Below, piece after piece: positions 8,048-13,951 of a stretch of 64,000 nucleotides of DNA. This DNA is from Klenkia terrae (GTDB taxonomy: Bacteria > Actinomycetota > Actinomycetes > Mycobacteriales > Geodermatophilaceae), in NCBI RefSeq assembly GCF_900491935.1, contig NZ_UEXK01000004.1, forward strand, positions 2,460,745-2,524,744, written 5' to 3'. The position numbers and the translations under genes are program-made. Within the stretch, counting starts at the first letter, position 1, and each line of letters opens with the position of its first letter. The notes beneath the pieces were generated by a model, which had not been told where the DNA came from, searched no databases, and was given only the letters and a program-made list of their open reading frames with translations.

Positions 8048-8707
8048 GTGTCCGCTCTCCTGTTCGGTTCCATCAGCACCATCGCCGACACCTCCGAGCT
8101 CCAGCGGGAGTCGTTCAACGAGGCGTTCGCCGCCCACGACCTCGACTGGCGCTGGGAGACCGACGACTACCGCGAGATGCTCCGCGGCAACGGCGGGGCC
8201 GACCGGGTCGCCGGCTACGCCGCGCAGCGCGGCCAGGACGTCGACGCCGCCGCCGTGCACGCCACCAAGTCCGAGCTGTTCCAGCAGAAGCTCGGCCGCG
8301 GCGGGCTGACCGCCCGCCCGGGCGTGCTCGAGGCCCTCCGCAGCGCCAAGCAGGCCGGCGGCAAGGTCGCCCTGGTGACCACCACCTCGCCGGAGAACGT
8401 CGTCGCGCTGGTGCAGGGCGTCGACGACCTGCAGCTGTCGGACTTCGACCTGGTGGTCGACAACTCGGTGGTGCAGCAGTCCAAGCCGGACCCGGCCGCC
8501 TACGCCTACGCGCTGCAGACCCTCGGCGAGGACGCCGCGGACGCCGTGGCCGTCGAGGACAACGTGGGCGGTGTCGAGTCGGCCACCGCCGCCGGCGTCA
8601 CCTGCCTGGCCTTCCCGAACACCAACACCGCCGGGCACGACTTCGGCGACGCCCGGGTGGTCGACCGGCTGGACCCGGCCGACCTGCCCGCCGGGCTGCA
8701 GGCCTGA
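8048..8707 (+). CDS. HAD-superfamily phosphatase, first gene of the mycosporine cluster
   Basis: 219 aa, HAD-IA (beta-phosphoglucomutase/phosphoglycolate-phosphatase-like). The usual first motif DxDGT is replaced: the N-terminus reads SALLFGSISTIADTSELQRESFN, lacking the nucleophile aspartate pair, although the cap-domain entry 'T..L...SFN.AF' is typical. Motif II (VTTTSPEN), the motif III lysine (SKPDPAAYAYAL) and motif IV (AVAVEDNVGGVESATAAGV) are present. It is therefore either a catalytically altered HAD or a binding/regulatory homologue. GTG 8048 is preceded by GCGAGG. It ends 10 bases before mysA on the same strand, so it is very likely co-transcribed. A HAD protein could act on sedoheptulose-phosphate-derived or damaged intermediates, but no such role is established for the canonical four-gene pathway. 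Confidence 0.75.
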   Translation: MSALLFGSISTIADTSELQRESFNEAFAAHDLDWRWETDDYREMLRGNGGADRVAGYAAQRGQDVDAAAVHATKSELFQQKLGRGGLTARPGVLEALRSAKQAGGKVALVTTTSPENVVALVQGVDDLQLSDFDLVVDNSVVQQSKPDPAAYAYALQTLGEDAADAVAVEDNVGGVESATAAGVTCLAFPNTNTAGHDFGDARVVDRLDPADLPAGLQA

Positions 8708-8717
8708 GGGACCGGGG

Positions 8718-9950
8718 ATGACCACCGTCAGCTCGTCCGTCACCCGCACCGACGGCGGGTTCTCCGTCGAGGCCGTGCACCGCACCGAGTACCGCCTGGT
8801 GCCGGTGGACGGCGTCTTCGCCCTGCACAACCCGCAGCTGGCCGACTGCTACCGCGCCGCCGGCCGCTGCCTGGCCGTCGTCGACGAGAACGTGCTGGCC
8901 CGCCACCGCGACGCGATGCAGGCCTACTTCGACGCCGCCGGGGTCGAGCTCACGATCATCCCGGTGGCCATCGCCGAGACCGACAAGACGATGAGCACCC
9001 TGGAGCGGCTGGTCGACGCGTTCGGCGCCTACGGCCTGCTGCGCACCGAGGCCCCGTTGGTCGTCGGCGGCGGGCTGGTCACCGACGTGGCCGGGTTCGC
9101 CTGCGCGTCCTACAAGCGGTCCACGCCCTACATCCGGATCCCCACCACGCTCATCGGGCTGATCGACGCCAGCGTCTCGATCAAGGTCGCGGTCAACCAC
9201 GGCAAGGCCAAGAACCGGCTCGGCGCCTACCACGCGTCGTCCACGGTGTTCCTGGACTTCTCGTTCCTGGCCAGCCTCGCCGAGGACCAGGTCCGCAACG
9301 GCATGGCCGAGCTGATCAAGATCGCGGTGGTCGCCAACCGGACGGTGTTCGACCTGCTCGACGAGCACGGCGAGGAGCTGCTGCGCACCCGCTTCGGCCA
9401 CCTCGACGGGAACCCCGAGATCCGCAAGGTCGCCGACCAGGTGACCGACGAGGCGATCGACACCATGCTCCAGCTCGAGGTGCCCAACCTCGCCGAGCTG
9501 GACCTGGACCGGGTGATCGCCTACGGCCACACCTGGAGCCCGACGCTCGAGCTGACGCCGGACATCCCGTACTTCCACGGGCACGCCATCTCCGTCGACA
9601 TGGCGTACTCGGCCACCCTGGCCGCCGAGCGGGGCTACATCTCCGTCGCCGACCGGGACCGGATCCACGCCCTGATGAGCCGGCTGGGCCTCACCGTGGA
9701 CAGCCCCTACCTGACCGCGGACCTGCTGCGCGACTCCACCAAGTCGATCCTGCAGACCCGGGACGGGCTGCTCCGCGCGGCGGCGCCCAAGCCGATCGGG
9801 GAGTGCACGTTCATGAACGACGTCGGGGACGACGAGCTCGTGCAGACCCTGGAGCTGCACCGCGAGGTGGCCGCCGCGCTGCCGCGCGGGGGCGCCGGGG
9901 TCGACGCGTTCATGGTGCCGCGCACGAGCCCGGTCGTCGCCGCGCCGTGA
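8718..9950 (+). CDS. mysA: Desmethyl-4-deoxygadusol synthase (sugar-phosphate cyclase)
   Basis: First committed enzyme of mycosporine-like amino acid synthesis: cyclises sedoheptulose 7-phosphate to demethyl-4-deoxygadusol using NAD+ and a metal. 410 aa, the usual length of MysA. It has the dehydroquinate-synthase fold: the glycine-rich NAD loop VVGGGLVTDVAGFACASYKR, and metal ligands E198 (NGMAELIKI), H271 (AYGHTWSPTLEL) and H287 (FHGHAISVDMA). The GHTWSPTLEL and FHGHA versions fit the sedoheptulose-phosphate cyclases rather than AroB, and the mysB/C/D neighbours favour the DDG synthase over 2-epi-5-epi-valiolone synthase. ATG 8718 follows GGGACCGGGG. The stop overlaps the mysB start (GTGA). 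Confidence 0.92.
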   Translation: MTTVSSSVTRTDGGFSVEAVHRTEYRLVPVDGVFALHNPQLADCYRAAGRCLAVVDENVLARHRDAMQAYFDAAGVELTIIPVAIAETDKTMSTLERLVDAFGAYGLLRTEAPLVVGGGLVTDVAGFACASYKRSTPYIRIPTTLIGLIDASVSIKVAVNHGKAKNRLGAYHASSTVFLDFSFLASLAEDQVRNGMAELIKIAVVANRTVFDLLDEHGEELLRTRFGHLDGNPEIRKVADQVTDEAIDTMLQLEVPNLAELDLDRVIAYGHTWSPTLELTPDIPYFHGHAISVDMAYSATLAAERGYISVADRDRIHALMSRLGLTVDSPYLTADLLRDSTKSILQTRDGLLRAAAPKPIGECTFMNDVGDDELVQTLELHREVAAALPRGGAGVDAFMVPRTSPVVAAP

Positions 9951-10741
9951 CGTCGTCCACCGCGCACGGGCTGCGTCCGGTCACGCCGCTGGGGATCCTG
10001 GCGGCGCGGCTGGACGCGCTCTGCGCCCGGCCGGACGGCCTCCCGGCGGACCTACGGGCCGAGCTGGAGGCCGTCCGCGACCTCGCGGTCGGCTTCGAGC
10101 CCTACCTGGAGGAGCACTCTTCGCCGGAGTCCCCGGGGCTGGCCCGGCTCGCGGACCGCACCCGGTCGGCGGCCTGGGCCGGCACCCTGGAGGCCGAGAT
10201 GCTCTCCGGGCACGTCGAGGGCGTGTTCCTGTCCTTCCTGCTGTCGATGACCCGCGCCCGGCGGGTGCTGGAGATCGGCATGTTCACCGGCTACGGCGCC
10301 CTGGCGATGGCCGAGGCGCTGCCCGAGGACGGGCAGGTGGTGGCGTGCGAGCTGGACCCCGAGGTCGCCGCCTTCGCCCGGGAGTGCTTCGCCGAGTCCC
10401 CCGCCGGGGCGCGGATCGACGTCCGGGTCGGGCCGGCCGGGGACACCCTGGCCGCGCTGGCCGTCGAAGGTCAGCAGTTCGACGTCGTCTTCGTCGACGC
10501 CGACAAGGCCGGGTACGCCGGCTACCTCGACGCGCTGCTGGAGACCGGTCTGCTCGCCCCGGGCGGGCTGGTCGCGGTGGACAACACGCTCATGCAGGGC
10601 CAGCCCTGGGCCGGCGAGCGCACCGCGAACGGCGAGGCCATCGCCGCGTTCAACCGCCAGGTCACCGCCGACCCCCGGGTCGAGCAGGTGCTGGTGCCCC
10701 TCCGCGACGGCATCACGCTGGTCCGCCGCGCGACCACCTGA
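9947..10741 (+). CDS. mysB: O-methyltransferase making 4-deoxygadusol
   Basis: SAM-dependent methyltransferase (264 aa) expected to methylate demethyl-4-deoxygadusol to 4-deoxygadusol. It shows the class I, metal-dependent caffeoyl-CoA-OMT-like pattern: an N-terminal helical part (LEEHSSPESPGLARLADRT), SAM motif I VLEIGMFTGYGALAMAEAL at about 105, the acidic SAM-ribose position CELDPE, and the metal/catalytic motif FVDADKAGYAGYLDALL at about 183. GTG 9947-9949 overlaps the mysA stop by 4 bases, so translation is coupled. The stop is followed by a strong AGGAGA for the oxygenase gene. A generic O-methyltransferase call would be possible out of context; next to mysA the role is clear. Confidence 0.9.
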   Translation: MTSSTAHGLRPVTPLGILAARLDALCARPDGLPADLRAELEAVRDLAVGFEPYLEEHSSPESPGLARLADRTRSAAWAGTLEAEMLSGHVEGVFLSFLLSMTRARRVLEIGMFTGYGALAMAEALPEDGQVVACELDPEVAAFARECFAESPAGARIDVRVGPAGDTLAALAVEGQQFDVVFVDADKAGYAGYLDALLETGLLAPGGLVAVDNTLMQGQPWAGERTANGEAIAAFNRQVTADPRVEQVLVPLRDGITLVRRATT

Positions 10742-10749
10742 GGAGATCC

Positions 10750-11562
10750 GTGCACACCACCACCCTGCAGCCGCTGGGCGCCGAGGTCACCGGCCTGGAC
10801 ATCGCCGCGGCCACCGACGAGGACGTCGTGGCCCTGCGCCGCCTGCTGGCCGACCGGGGCGTCGTCGTGCTGCGCGACCAGCACGTCGACGACACCGTCT
10901 TCCTGGGCTTCCTGCGCAGCTTCGGCGAGCTCACGTTCACCGCCGGCGAGACCCCGGTCGACGGGTTCCCCGACCTCAACGTGATCAGCAACGTCGGCCG
11001 GGCCGAGCCGCCCCGCAGCACCTTCCACGTCGACAGCTCCTACCTGTCGACGCCGCCGGCCTACACCGCGCTGCGGGCGGTGCAGATCCCCTCGCAGGGC
11101 GGGGAGACGGTCTTCACCGACCAGTACCGCGCGCTGGAGACGCTGCCGCTGGACCTCCGGGCGCAGGTCGAGGGCCGCAGCATCCGGCACGTCGTCACCG
11201 GCATCGACCCCGGGCTGCTGACCGAGGACGACGAGACGGAGGCCGAGCACCCGATCGCCCGGCCGCACCCGCTCACCGGCCGCCCGGCGCTGTACCTGAC
11301 CACGCCCAAGCGGTGCGCCGGCATCAGCGGGCTGGACGACGACACCTCCGCCGGGCTGGTCGCCGAGCTCTACGCGCACTCCACCACCGCGGAGAACAGC
11401 CTGGCCCACGCGTGGTCCCCGGGCGACGTCGTGGTGTGGGACAACGCCTGCGTGCTGCACCGCGGCGACCACTCCGTCGTCGTCGGCGACCGGGTGATGC
11501 ACCGCGGCATGGTCCGCGACCACGGCCCGGCCGCCGCCGACGCCGCGGGGAGCGGGCACTGA
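10750..11562 (+). CDS. TauD/TfdA-type Fe(II)/2-oxoglutarate oxygenase inside the mycosporine cluster
   Basis: 270 aa, double-stranded beta-helix oxygenase. The facial triad is visible: H93 and D95 (STFHVDSSYLS) and H237 (DNACVLHRGDHS). R252 in VMHRGMVRD matches the 2-oxoglutarate-binding arginine of TauD. The N-terminus (LQPLGAEVTGLDIAAATDEDVVALRRLLADRGVVVLRDQ, read in two parts) is the standard TauD entry. Start GTG 10750 with AGGAGA 4 bases upstream. It sits between mysB and mysC, and its stop overlaps the mysC start. Predicted role: oxidative tailoring (hydroxylation, demethylation or decarboxylation) of a mycosporine or of the amino-acid building block. The characterised MAA oxygenase MysH belongs to the phytanoyl-CoA-dioxygenase group, a different branch, so this appears to be an independent recruitment. 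The substrate is inference. Confidence 0.85.
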   Translation: MHTTTLQPLGAEVTGLDIAAATDEDVVALRRLLADRGVVVLRDQHVDDTVFLGFLRSFGELTFTAGETPVDGFPDLNVISNVGRAEPPRSTFHVDSSYLSTPPAYTALRAVQIPSQGGETVFTDQYRALETLPLDLRAQVEGRSIRHVVTGIDPGLLTEDDETEAEHPIARPHPLTGRPALYLTTPKRCAGISGLDDDTSAGLVAELYAHSTTAENSLAHAWSPGDVVVWDNACVLHRGDHSVVVGDRVMHRGMVRDHGPAAADAAGSGH

Positions 11563-12923
11563 CCGCCCCGGCCGCGGCGCCCCCGCGGACCGCGGGCGGC
11601 GCGCCCGCCCGGCCGCGGCCCACGCCGTGGCGGTCGGTCGCCGCGCTGGCCGGGCTCGCGCTGACCCTGCCGGTGGACCTCGCGGTCACCGCGGTGGCGC
11701 TGGCCACCACCCGGGCACCGCGGCCGGCCCCGGCGGCGCAGCCGCGCACGGTGCTGATCAGCGGCGGCAAGATGACCAAGGCCCTCCAGCTGGCCCGGTC
11801 CTTCGCCGCCGCGGGGCACCGGGTCGTGCTGGTGGAGAAGGACACCTACCGGTTCACCGGGCACCGGTTCTCCCGGGCGGTGGACGCCTTCCACGTCGTC
11901 CCCGACCCGCGCGACCCCGGGTACGCCCAGGCCCTGCTGGACGTCGTCCGGACCGAGGGCGTGGACCTGTACGTGCCGGTCTGCTCCCCGGTGGCGTCGG
12001 AGTTCGACGCCGCGGCCGCCGACCTGCTGGCCGGGCACTGCGAGGTGCTCAGCCTGGACGCCGAGATGGTCCGCACGCTGGACGACAAGCACCGGTTCAC
12101 CGAGCTCGCCGCCTCGCTGGGCCTCTCGGTCCCCGACACCCACCTGGTCACCGACCCGCAGCAGGTGCTCGACCACGACTTCACCGGGGCGACGAAGCCC
12201 TACGTGCTCAAGTCGATCGCCTACGACCCGGTGCACCGCCTGGACCTCACCCACCTGCCGCTGCCCACCCACGCGGCCACCGAGCGCTTCCTGGCCGGCA
12301 AGCCGATCAGCCCGGAGAACCCCTGGATCCTGCAGGAGTTCGTCACCGGCGAGGAGATCTGCACGCACTCCACCGCCCGGGACGGCGTGGTCACCGTCTG
12401 GTGCTGCTGCCCGTCCTCGGCCTTCCAGGTCAACTACGCGCAGGTCGACCGGCCGCGGGTCCGGGAGTGGGTGACCACGTTCGTCCGGGAGCTCGGGCTC
12501 ACCGGCCAGGTCTCCTTCGACTTCCTGGTCGACGACGACGGCCGGCCCTACGCCATCGAGTGCAACCCGCGCACCCACTCGGCGATCACGATGTTCCACG
12601 ACCACCCCGCCCGCCCGGGGCTGGCCGACGCCTACCTGGCCGCGCGGGACACCCCGCTCGAGCCGCTGCCGGGCAGCCGGCCCACCTACTGGCTCTACCA
12701 CGAGCTGTGGCGGGCGCTGAGCGCACCGCGGACCGCGGCGGACCGCTGGCGGGTGGTCCGGGCGGGCAAGGAAGCCGTCTTCGACCGGGCCGACCCGCTG
12801 CCCTACCTCGTGCTGCACCACGTGCAGATCCCGCTGCTGCTGTGGGGGAACCTGCTCGCGGGGGGCGCCTGGCGCAAGATCGACTTCAACATCGGCAAGC
12901 TCGTGCAGCCGGCGGGCGACTGA
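11559..12923 (+). CDS. mysC: ATP-grasp ligase forming mycosporine-glycine
   Basis: ATP-grasp enzyme (about 454 aa) expected to join glycine to 4-deoxygadusol, giving mycosporine-glycine. A short hydrophobic N-terminus (SVAALAGLALTLPVDLAVTAVAL) precedes TVLISGGKMTKALQLARSFAAAGH, the nucleotide-binding start of the enzyme. Later come the ATP-binding lysine strand (KPYVLKSIAYDP), ILQEFVTGEEICTH and the Mg2+-binding IECNPRTHSAITMF. The length matches characterised cyanobacterial MysC. The frame opens at the TauD stop, and the only start that keeps the hydrophobic N-terminus is CTG 11559-11561, overlapping that TGA. Alternatives are internal GTGs around 11671 and 11694, which would remove part of that segment. 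The stop overlaps mysD by one base (TGATG). Confidence 0.9.
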   Translation: MTAPAAAPPRTAGGAPARPRPTPWRSVAALAGLALTLPVDLAVTAVALATTRAPRPAPAAQPRTVLISGGKMTKALQLARSFAAAGHRVVLVEKDTYRFTGHRFSRAVDAFHVVPDPRDPGYAQALLDVVRTEGVDLYVPVCSPVASEFDAAAADLLAGHCEVLSLDAEMVRTLDDKHRFTELAASLGLSVPDTHLVTDPQQVLDHDFTGATKPYVLKSIAYDPVHRLDLTHLPLPTHAATERFLAGKPISPENPWILQEFVTGEEICTHSTARDGVVTVWCCCPSSAFQVNYAQVDRPRVREWVTTFVRELGLTGQVSFDFLVDDDGRPYAIECNPRTHSAITMFHDHPARPGLADAYLAARDTPLEPLPGSRPTYWLYHELWRALSAPRTAADRWRVVRAGKEAVFDRADPLPYLVLHHVQIPLLLWGNLLAGGAWRKIDFNIGKLVQPAGD

Positions 12924-13951
12924 TGGCCCGGGTGCTGCACCTGGTCGGCTCGCCCACCACGACGTTCATGGACGACCTGTCCCGGCTGTACGCCGCGGAC
13001 TGCCTGGCCAACGTGGGCGGGGAGCACGAGCACGTCGTGGCGCACGTGTCGCCCGACGGCTCGTGGCGGTTCCCGGCGTCGCTGGACGCGCTGGCCGACG
13101 CGGAGCCGCTGGCCCTGGGCCCGGCGCTGGCCCGGCTCACCGCGCTGGACGTCGACGTGGCGCTCCCGCAGATGTTCTGCATCCCCGGCATGACCTCCTA
13201 CCGGGCCCTGCTCGACGTGCTCGGCATCCCCTTCGTCGGCAACCCGGCCGACGTCATGGCGCTGGGCGCGCACAAGGCCCGCGCCCGCGCGGTGGTCGCC
13301 GCGGCCGGCGTCCGCGTCCCGGCCGGCGAGGTGCTGACCCCGGGTGCGCAGCCGACGCTCGCCCCGCCGGTGGTGGTCAAGCCGGTGGACGCCGACAACT
13401 CCGCCGGGGTCTCCCTCGTCCGGTCGGCCGGGGAGTTCGCCGCCGCGCTGGCCACCGCCCGCGCGGAGTCCACCGACGTGCTGGTGGAGGCGTTCGTGCC
13501 GCTGGGCCGGGAGGTGCGCTGCGGCGTCGTCGTCCGGGACGGGGAGCTCGTGGCGCTGCCGCTGGAGGAGTACGGCTTCGCCGAGGGCGCCGCCGTCCGC
13601 ACGGCCGCGGACAAGATCCAGCGGGCGGACGACGGCCGGCTGGGGCTCATGGCCAAGGACACGCCGACCGTGTGGATCGTCGACCCCGCCGACCCGGTCA
13701 CCGCCGTGGTGCAGGAGGCGGCGCTGGCCTGCCACACCGCCCTGGGCTGCCGGGACTACTCGCTGTTCGACTTCCGGGTCGACCCCGACGGCGTCCCCTG
13801 GTTCCTCGAGGCCGGGCTCTACAACTCCTTCGCCCGGCAGAGCGTGGTCCCGACGATGGCCCGCGCGGCCGGGGTCGAGCTGCCCGAGCTGTTCGCCGCC
13901 GGGGTCGCCGCCGCACTGGCCCGTCGTCCGGGCGGGCCGGGCCGCTCGTAG
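12923..13951 (+). CDS. mysD: D-Ala-D-Ala ligase-like enzyme forming di-substituted mycosporines
   Basis: ATP-grasp ligase (342 aa) of the D-alanine-D-alanine ligase family that condenses a second amino acid onto mycosporine-glycine, giving shinorine/porphyra-334-type compounds. Visible features: MQ-type loop replaced by LPQMFCIPGMTSYRALLDVL (substrate-binding N-domain), the ATP-grasp lysine strand VVVKPVDADNSAGVSLV at about 151, VLVEAFVPLGREVRCGVVV, and the C-terminal metal/phosphate loop FLEAGLYNSFARQS. ATG 12923 overlaps the mysC TGA by one base. It is the last gene of the cluster; a 35-base gap and a small unknown gene follow. The second amino acid (Ser, Thr, Ala or Gly) cannot be predicted reliably from the sequence. 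Confidence 0.9.
   Translation: MARVLHLVGSPTTTFMDDLSRLYAADCLANVGGEHEHVVAHVSPDGSWRFPASLDALADAEPLALGPALARLTALDVDVALPQMFCIPGMTSYRALLDVLGIPFVGNPADVMALGAHKARARAVVAAAGVRVPAGEVLTPGAQPTLAPPVVVKPVDADNSAGVSLVRSAGEFAAALATARAESTDVLVEAFVPLGREVRCGVVVRDGELVALPLEEYGFAEGAAVRTAADKIQRADDGRLGLMAKDTPTVWIVDPADPVTAVVQEAALACHTALGCRDYSLFDFRVDPDGVPWFLEAGLYNSFARQSVVPTMARAAGVELPELFAAGVAAALARRPGGPGRS

Follow-up and report, generated by a model that had tools for sequence, protein, structure and literature searches.

The closest described counterparts of the oxygenase studied here come from the biosynthesis of mycosporine-like amino acids (MAAs). According to PMC10510106, MysH, a member of the phytanoyl-CoA dioxygenase (PhyH) family, hydroxylates an amino-acid arm of the MAA, with loss of glycine and formation of palythine. 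In the same paper (2023), a TauD/TfdA dioxygenase encoded in the mysFIE clusters of cyanobacteria is named MysI; it is distinct from the PhyH-type MysH and is proposed to hydroxylate a glycine arm toward a palythine-type intermediate; convergence of MysH and MysI is already put forward there. For actinobacterial MAA clusters, the GATOR-GC study (PMC11888242, a 2025 preprint) reports a haloacid dehalogenase (HAD) protein and a TauD/TfdA oxygenase as two conserved genes and lists the HAD as a possible MAA enzyme, and its authors state that, to their knowledge, no earlier MAA cluster with HAD and TauD was known. The preprint also relays, from an unpublished 2018 meeting abstract, that the R. fascians D188 operon, which includes HAD and TauD, yielded shinorine, palythine and palythine-serine in S. 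coelicolor M1152. In S. albidoflavus, mycosporine-glycine was obtained with no more than the R. fascians mysABC genes (PMC11284840), and TauD and HAD are therefore not needed for that product in that host. TauD is stated to be absent from cyanobacteria in PMC11888242, possibly because the core genes were required in one search interval and mysFIE lies apart from them. In the open-licence literature, mycosporine together with haloacid dehalogenase and dehydroquinate synthase was found only in PMC11888242, whereas mycosporine and TauD are mentioned together in three further papers.

The window, by which we mean the whole stretch of 64,000 nucleotides of Klenkia terrae DNA that was analysed, carries a compact operon on the plus strand (8048-13951) with the order HAD-mysA-mysB-TauD-mysC-mysD (Table 1). 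The order from mysA to mysD is the one given in the original prediction, whose coordinates leave out the HAD gene that opens the operon, 10 nt before mysA. In Pfam, MysA matches DHQ_synthase, MysB Methyltransf_3 and MysD Dala_Dala_lig_C, while MysC exceeds the cut-offs of both ATP-grasp_3 (24.8 vs 23.2) and NF005315 (429.3 bits vs 406). By analogy with known MysC, the first ligase would add glycine, and MysD would, again by analogy, add the second amino acid.

Table 1. Genes of the mys operon in the window
Feature	Position	Strand	Basis
CbbY-like HAD protein	8048..8707	+	Pfam HAD matches, CbbY structure matches, motif counts
mysA, desmethyl-4-deoxygadusol synthase type (DHQ-synthase superfamily)	8718..9950	+	PF01761, PF24621, cluster-wide homology
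mysB, O-methyltransferase, GTG start	9947..10741	+	PF01596 (Methyltransf_3), junction
TauD/TfdA-family Fe(II)/2OG oxygenase, GTG start, TGA stop	10750..11562	+	PF02668, alignment, AF2 model
mysC, ATP-grasp ligase, start codon uncertain	11559..12923	+	NF005315, start codon scan
mysD, D-Ala-D-Ala ligase-like	12923..13951	+	PF07478 (Dala_Dala_lig_C), junction

Most junctions had been predicted to overlap, a wording that proved a little generous. Overlaps are found between mysA and mysB (4 nt) and between mysC and mysD (1 nt), but mysB and TauD are separated by an 8-nt gap, GGAGATCC, that resembles a ribosome-binding site. The 4-nt overlap between TauD and mysC needs an unusual CTG start at 11559, because the ATG, GTG and TTG codons of the mysC frame all lie farther off (GTG 11436 and others upstream of it, or GTG 11673 and others downstream); the frame is open through 11559 and its stop ends at 12923. 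A start at CTG 11559 would retain an N-terminal hydrophobic stretch.

All the partners of the actinobacterial MAA-cluster TauD, namely the DHQS, O-MT, ATP-grasp, D-Ala ligase and HAD genes, stand in one cluster with the oxygenase gene of the window, and the operon resembles the R. fascians cluster and the others in PMC11888242 in this gene content as well as in phylum. Rhodococcoides fascians A44A (L105) carries an oxygenase of the same clade, 53% identical to the window TauD; its gene follows mysD, whereas in the window it lies between mysB and mysC. The nearest named loci, among the best 80 of 587 relatives, belong to Klenkia species (Geodermatophilaceae).

As predicted, the oxygenase is TauD/TfdA-like and differs in family from the PhyH-type MysH: it matches PF02668 only, and not PhyH (PF05721), and PhyH is matched twice in the genome, at distances of about 0.25 and 2.2 Mb from the cluster. 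MysI belongs to the same TauD/TfdA family as the window protein, and its proposed hydroxylation of a glycine arm (PMC10510106) would suit a MysI ortholog in the window, which would remove the C3 glycine before further methylation (the aplysiapalythine route). We consider such orthology improbable. By its description in that paper, MysI sits in mysF-mysI-mysE, apart from mysABC and accompanied by MysF and the Gly-specific NRPS MysE, whereas the window TauD adjoins mysB and mysC, and the six operon genes scanned include a MysD-type ligase and neither MysF nor MysE. No TauD product name occurs among the 36 features of the plasmid cluster of Nostoc sp. HK-01, which holds mysABC and a D-Ala ligase, and a tblastn search against plasmids found no MysI sequence among the matches listed (60 of 434 records).

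We then consider the linkage of the oxygenase to mys genes. For the best 80 of 587 relatives, every one of the 80 named loci has mysC no farther than 4 kb from TauD; clade members away from mys genes could still occur among the weaker relatives. On this linkage in the best 80, chance placement of TauD is rejected. The place of the gene between the methyltransferase and the first ligase, which had been taken as distinctive, is real in the window and is one of several orders: in the same best 80 of 587, TauD ends the cluster after mysD (HAD-A-B-C-D-TauD) in 51 loci, stands between mysB and mysC in 17 (16 and one truncated locus), and belongs in the remaining 12 to partial or rearranged loci, including some with TauD upstream of HAD and on the opposite strand. 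In a tree of 45 of the 81 clade sequences and 11 other TauD proteins, the clade was set apart from these ordinary TauDs with support of 100/100. Sequence set A1 comprised 16 of the order's 20 clade members (L004, L012, L017 and L020 were left out, their match having run over a stop); in A2 the window was joined by 42 of the 80 loci, and in A3 by 40 of 75. The proposal that the oxygenase is dedicated to the MAA pathway is supported by the linkage and the tree together.

The genome searches scored a subset of the first-look candidates in each genome. Of the 298 genomes drawn from the order, 20 had the clade at 57% identity or above, other listed matches reaching at most 37%, and all 20 were among the 23 genomes with MysC at at least 55%; the chance of this co-occurrence is about 3e-28 assuming independent genomes, which they are not. 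In a phylum-wide draw, MysC was found in 7 of 396 genomes, 6 of which had TauD in the cluster. Four of the 28 MysC genomes of the two surveys (G083, G150, G267 and G505) are without the TauD clade, and the TauD step is therefore accessory. Replacement of TauD by a PhyH protein in these four was considered and rejected: in G150, G267 and G505 PhyH is on the same contig and far from mysC, and G083 has none.

The window TauD belongs to the TauD/TfdA Fe(II)/2OG oxygenases by PF02668 (186.7 bits vs a Pfam cut-off of 27) and is the sole match to this family in the genome. The alignment comprised the window protein with 80 cluster homologs (81 clade sequences), E. coli TauD and 10 further TauD homologs. 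H93, D95 and H237 align to the iron ligands H99, D101 and H255 of E. coli TauD, each in 81 of 81 clade sequences, and the iron triad is intact as had been claimed. T120, R248 and R252 align, likewise in 81/81 each, to TauD T126, R266 (11 residues after the last His) and R270. In TauD we take R266 to be the 2OG arginine, R270 the arginine that holds the sulfonate of taurine, and T126 a 2OG contact. The window protein has both the HxD...H triad and a 2OG arginine, although the latter is R248, the R266 counterpart, and not R252, to which the original prediction had assigned it.

The taurine pocket of TauD presumably consists of H70, Y73, N95, F159, F206 and R270. Of these only R270 is kept in the window protein, as R252, and across the 81 clade sequences H70, Y73, N95, V102, S158, F159 and F206 are replaced in most or all (the alignment of the clade with TauD is gapped near S158/F159). 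R252 is not specific to the clade: each of the 11 comparison proteins has this arginine too. The position of F206 is an arginine (R188) in 81/81 clade sequences and F in all 11 comparison proteins, that of N95 is R or K in 76/81, and that of H70 is H in 10/10 other homologs and variable in the clade. E. coli TauD and the window protein differ at H70, N95, F159 and F206, and they share the Fe and 2OG ligands, the second arginine (R270/R252) and the fold: an AF2 model of the window TauD (43 sequences, pLDDT 94.8), when superposed on 1gy9 (E. coli TauD), gave Z 32.9 and an rmsd of 2.1 over 256 residues, several relatives being tied within 1 Z unit. We propose that R188 lies in the substrate pocket, which may have been altered for a carboxylate-bearing substrate such as shinorine.

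A housekeeping sulfonate or herbicide-type dioxygenase that stands in the cluster by chance is scarcely credible. The TauD family is broad, and the taurine dioxygenase model NF007104 is matched with E 2.4e-34, yet at 118.8 bits vs a cut-off of 313; against such a role stand the mysC cluster found at every one of the best 80 of 587 loci, the presence of MysC in 20 of 20 clade genomes of one order, and the loss of every taurine contact except R270. A taurine or herbicide function is accordingly rejected on the NF007104 score and the lost contacts.

With the linkage to the cluster, the intact cofactor site, the altered pocket residue and the TauD fold observed as described above, the window TauD is probably a dedicated MAA oxygenase, whose most likely reaction would be hydroxylation of the alpha-carbon of an amino-acid arm, leading to palythines. 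For the substrate, the arm or site attacked and the products, we infer, or draw on second-hand reports, as follows. A disubstituted MAA, the shinorine-like product of MysD, would be held by its carboxylates through R252 and the clade-specific R188; an Fe(IV)-oxo species would hydroxylate the alpha-carbon adjoining the ring nitrogen of the arm; the resulting carbinolamine would collapse with cleavage of the C-N bond, leaving the ring with a bare amino group (palythine or palythine-serine type) and releasing an alpha-keto acid. The mechanism would parallel that of taurine dioxygenase, in which hydroxylation beside the acid group is followed by fragmentation, and that of ScoE/Rv0097, which oxidise an N-carboxymethyl group. 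TauD, having been recruited from a different part of the Fe/2OG superfamily, would then be a functional counterpart of the PhyH-type MysH.

The widespread replacement in the clade of TauD H70, Y73, N95, V102, S158, F159 and F206 (most or all of 81 sequences), and the recognisable relationship to ScoE and Rv0097 (NF049937, E 1e-23; structures with Z 26.7-28.0), would also suit an oxygenase that makes another MAA, either a stable ring- or arm-hydroxylated compound or one whose arm is oxidised further, for example by ScoE-like action on the glycine arm. We hold this to be unlikely, considering that the heterologous products relayed in PMC11888242 are shinorine, palythine and palythine-serine, with none other mentioned in the relaying passage. 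In view of the same products, the earlier suggestion of an undescribed compound as the probable product is not supported. Palythines could also arise otherwise, because that passage mentions no tauD deletion.

Action early in the pathway, with 4-deoxygadusol or the free glycine donor as substrate, is suggested by the place of the window gene between mysB and mysC. The position after mysD in 51 of the best 80 of 587 loci speaks against it, and at the Microlunatus flavus locus, where HAD-TauD-mysC-mysD occurs without mysA or mysB, the evidence is neutral or contrary. Distances between TauD proteins correlated best with those of MysD (0.75 over 70 loci; next best 0.61), and they did so in both gene orders, with TauD next to mysD (50 loci; 0.80 vs 0.74 for HAD) as well as not next to it (16 loci; 0.78 vs 0.72 for MysA), these being descriptive correlations with small margins. 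The pattern is compatible with an enzyme that would act after MysD. An early role is thus very improbable, and processing of the free glycine donor, which had been among the original suggestions, finds no support.

A pathway-specific oxygenase was the right idea, and its novelty is mostly taken: the TauD-MAA association is already published, and a TauD-type MAA oxygenase, which the original prediction had held to be undescribed, was reported as MysI (PMC10510106) and as the actinobacterial TauD (PMC11888242). The present analysis adds the pocket arginine and the probable HAD pseudo-enzyme. Our reading of the oxygenase as a palythine-forming enzyme suggests that the palythine step was apparently invented at least twice, from PhyH-type and from TauD-type oxygenases, and R188 and R252 are concrete residues for testing.

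The HAD protein may matter more to the specialist: it is probably no phosphatase, so the search for its role is redirected. Its nearest solved structures are CbbY 4uat and 4uar (4uat: Foldseek E 2.3e-19, 35% identity), and a profile search matched CbbY with E 1.4e-55. CbbY, a xylulose-1,5-bisphosphate phosphatase, is the best structure match and shares the positions of motifs II-IV (T111, K146 and E170), but it has both motif-I aspartates, which the HAD has lost. Motif I reads FGSISTIADTS in the window and F/L-D-x-D-G in relatives, so that the nucleophile Asp is replaced by Gly7 and the acid/base Asp by Ile9 (GSIS vs DxDG). We compared 76 sequences (75 loci, from the best 80 of 587, and the window), of which 75 were readable at motif I, L112 (144 aa) being without that region. 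The nucleophile position was Gly in 75/75 and the acid/base position Ile (73) or Leu (2), while T111, K146 and E170 were invariant (76/76). Of the nine next-best homologs (L143-L151), L144-L146 were matched in parts that start beyond the motif; the other six, which include it, all read DCDG or DVDG there. The HAD is probably a pseudo-phosphatase, unable to act as a phosphatase.

At least 21 of the order's 298 genomes hold this HAD clade (at least 54% identity, nearly full length), and each of the 21 also has MysC; among the matches listed, the next-best in the order reached 38%, and shorter partial ones up to 46%. In the phylum-wide draw of 396 genomes, the HAD at E 1e-35 coincided with MysC, the two being found in one and the same set of 7. 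The HAD is present without TauD in G267 and G505, and each of the 5 loci without HAD among the best 80 of 587 starts where its contig does. The HAD thus follows the mys core more closely than TauD does. Natural clusters that do without it also occur, namely the two mysABCD clusters of G083 and G150. In S. albidoflavus the HAD was not strictly required, because mysABC worked without it (PMC11284840).

As to its role, binding, gating or scaffolding is our guess. Tentatively, and with more doubt than confidence, we envisage a near-obligate, non-catalytic partner that would bind a sugar phosphate or the Mys enzymes and thereby gate or activate ring formation, while the TauD with its two-arginine clamp would finish the molecule. 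The CbbY-derived HAD would, in this tentative scheme, have kept the phosphate-gripping motifs and swapped DxDG for GSIS, with a ligand such as sedoheptulose 7-phosphate, the substrate of MysA.

Several loci were unusual in composition. Two records, L046 and L082, have mys genes of the actinobacterial type on short contigs under the labels Melainabacteria and Spirochaetes; the L046 contig equals in length that of G005, a genome assigned to the same order as the window, so that these labels may be binning errors. In Mycobacterium gordonae (L053:3651-8789) there is no mysB between mysA and mysC, and the best match elsewhere in the genome is partial (41%). For the Microlunatus flavus locus mentioned above (L055:7292-11234), the genome offers a single MysA match, of 31% identity, and none for MysB at 1e-15. 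In L090:2699-3877 and L121:11065-12168, MysA is 36-39% identical to that of the window and the other five proteins 50-60%, which suggests a different synthase lineage within otherwise similar clusters. Finally, one Nocardioidaceae MAG holds two mys loci (L065:2799-8762 and L037:101-4043), of which L065 looks mosaic, with HAD, MysA and MysB 73, 86 and 69% identical to the window and MysC, MysD and TauD 60-62%, which would point to a mixed bin or to an exchange of cluster halves by recombination.
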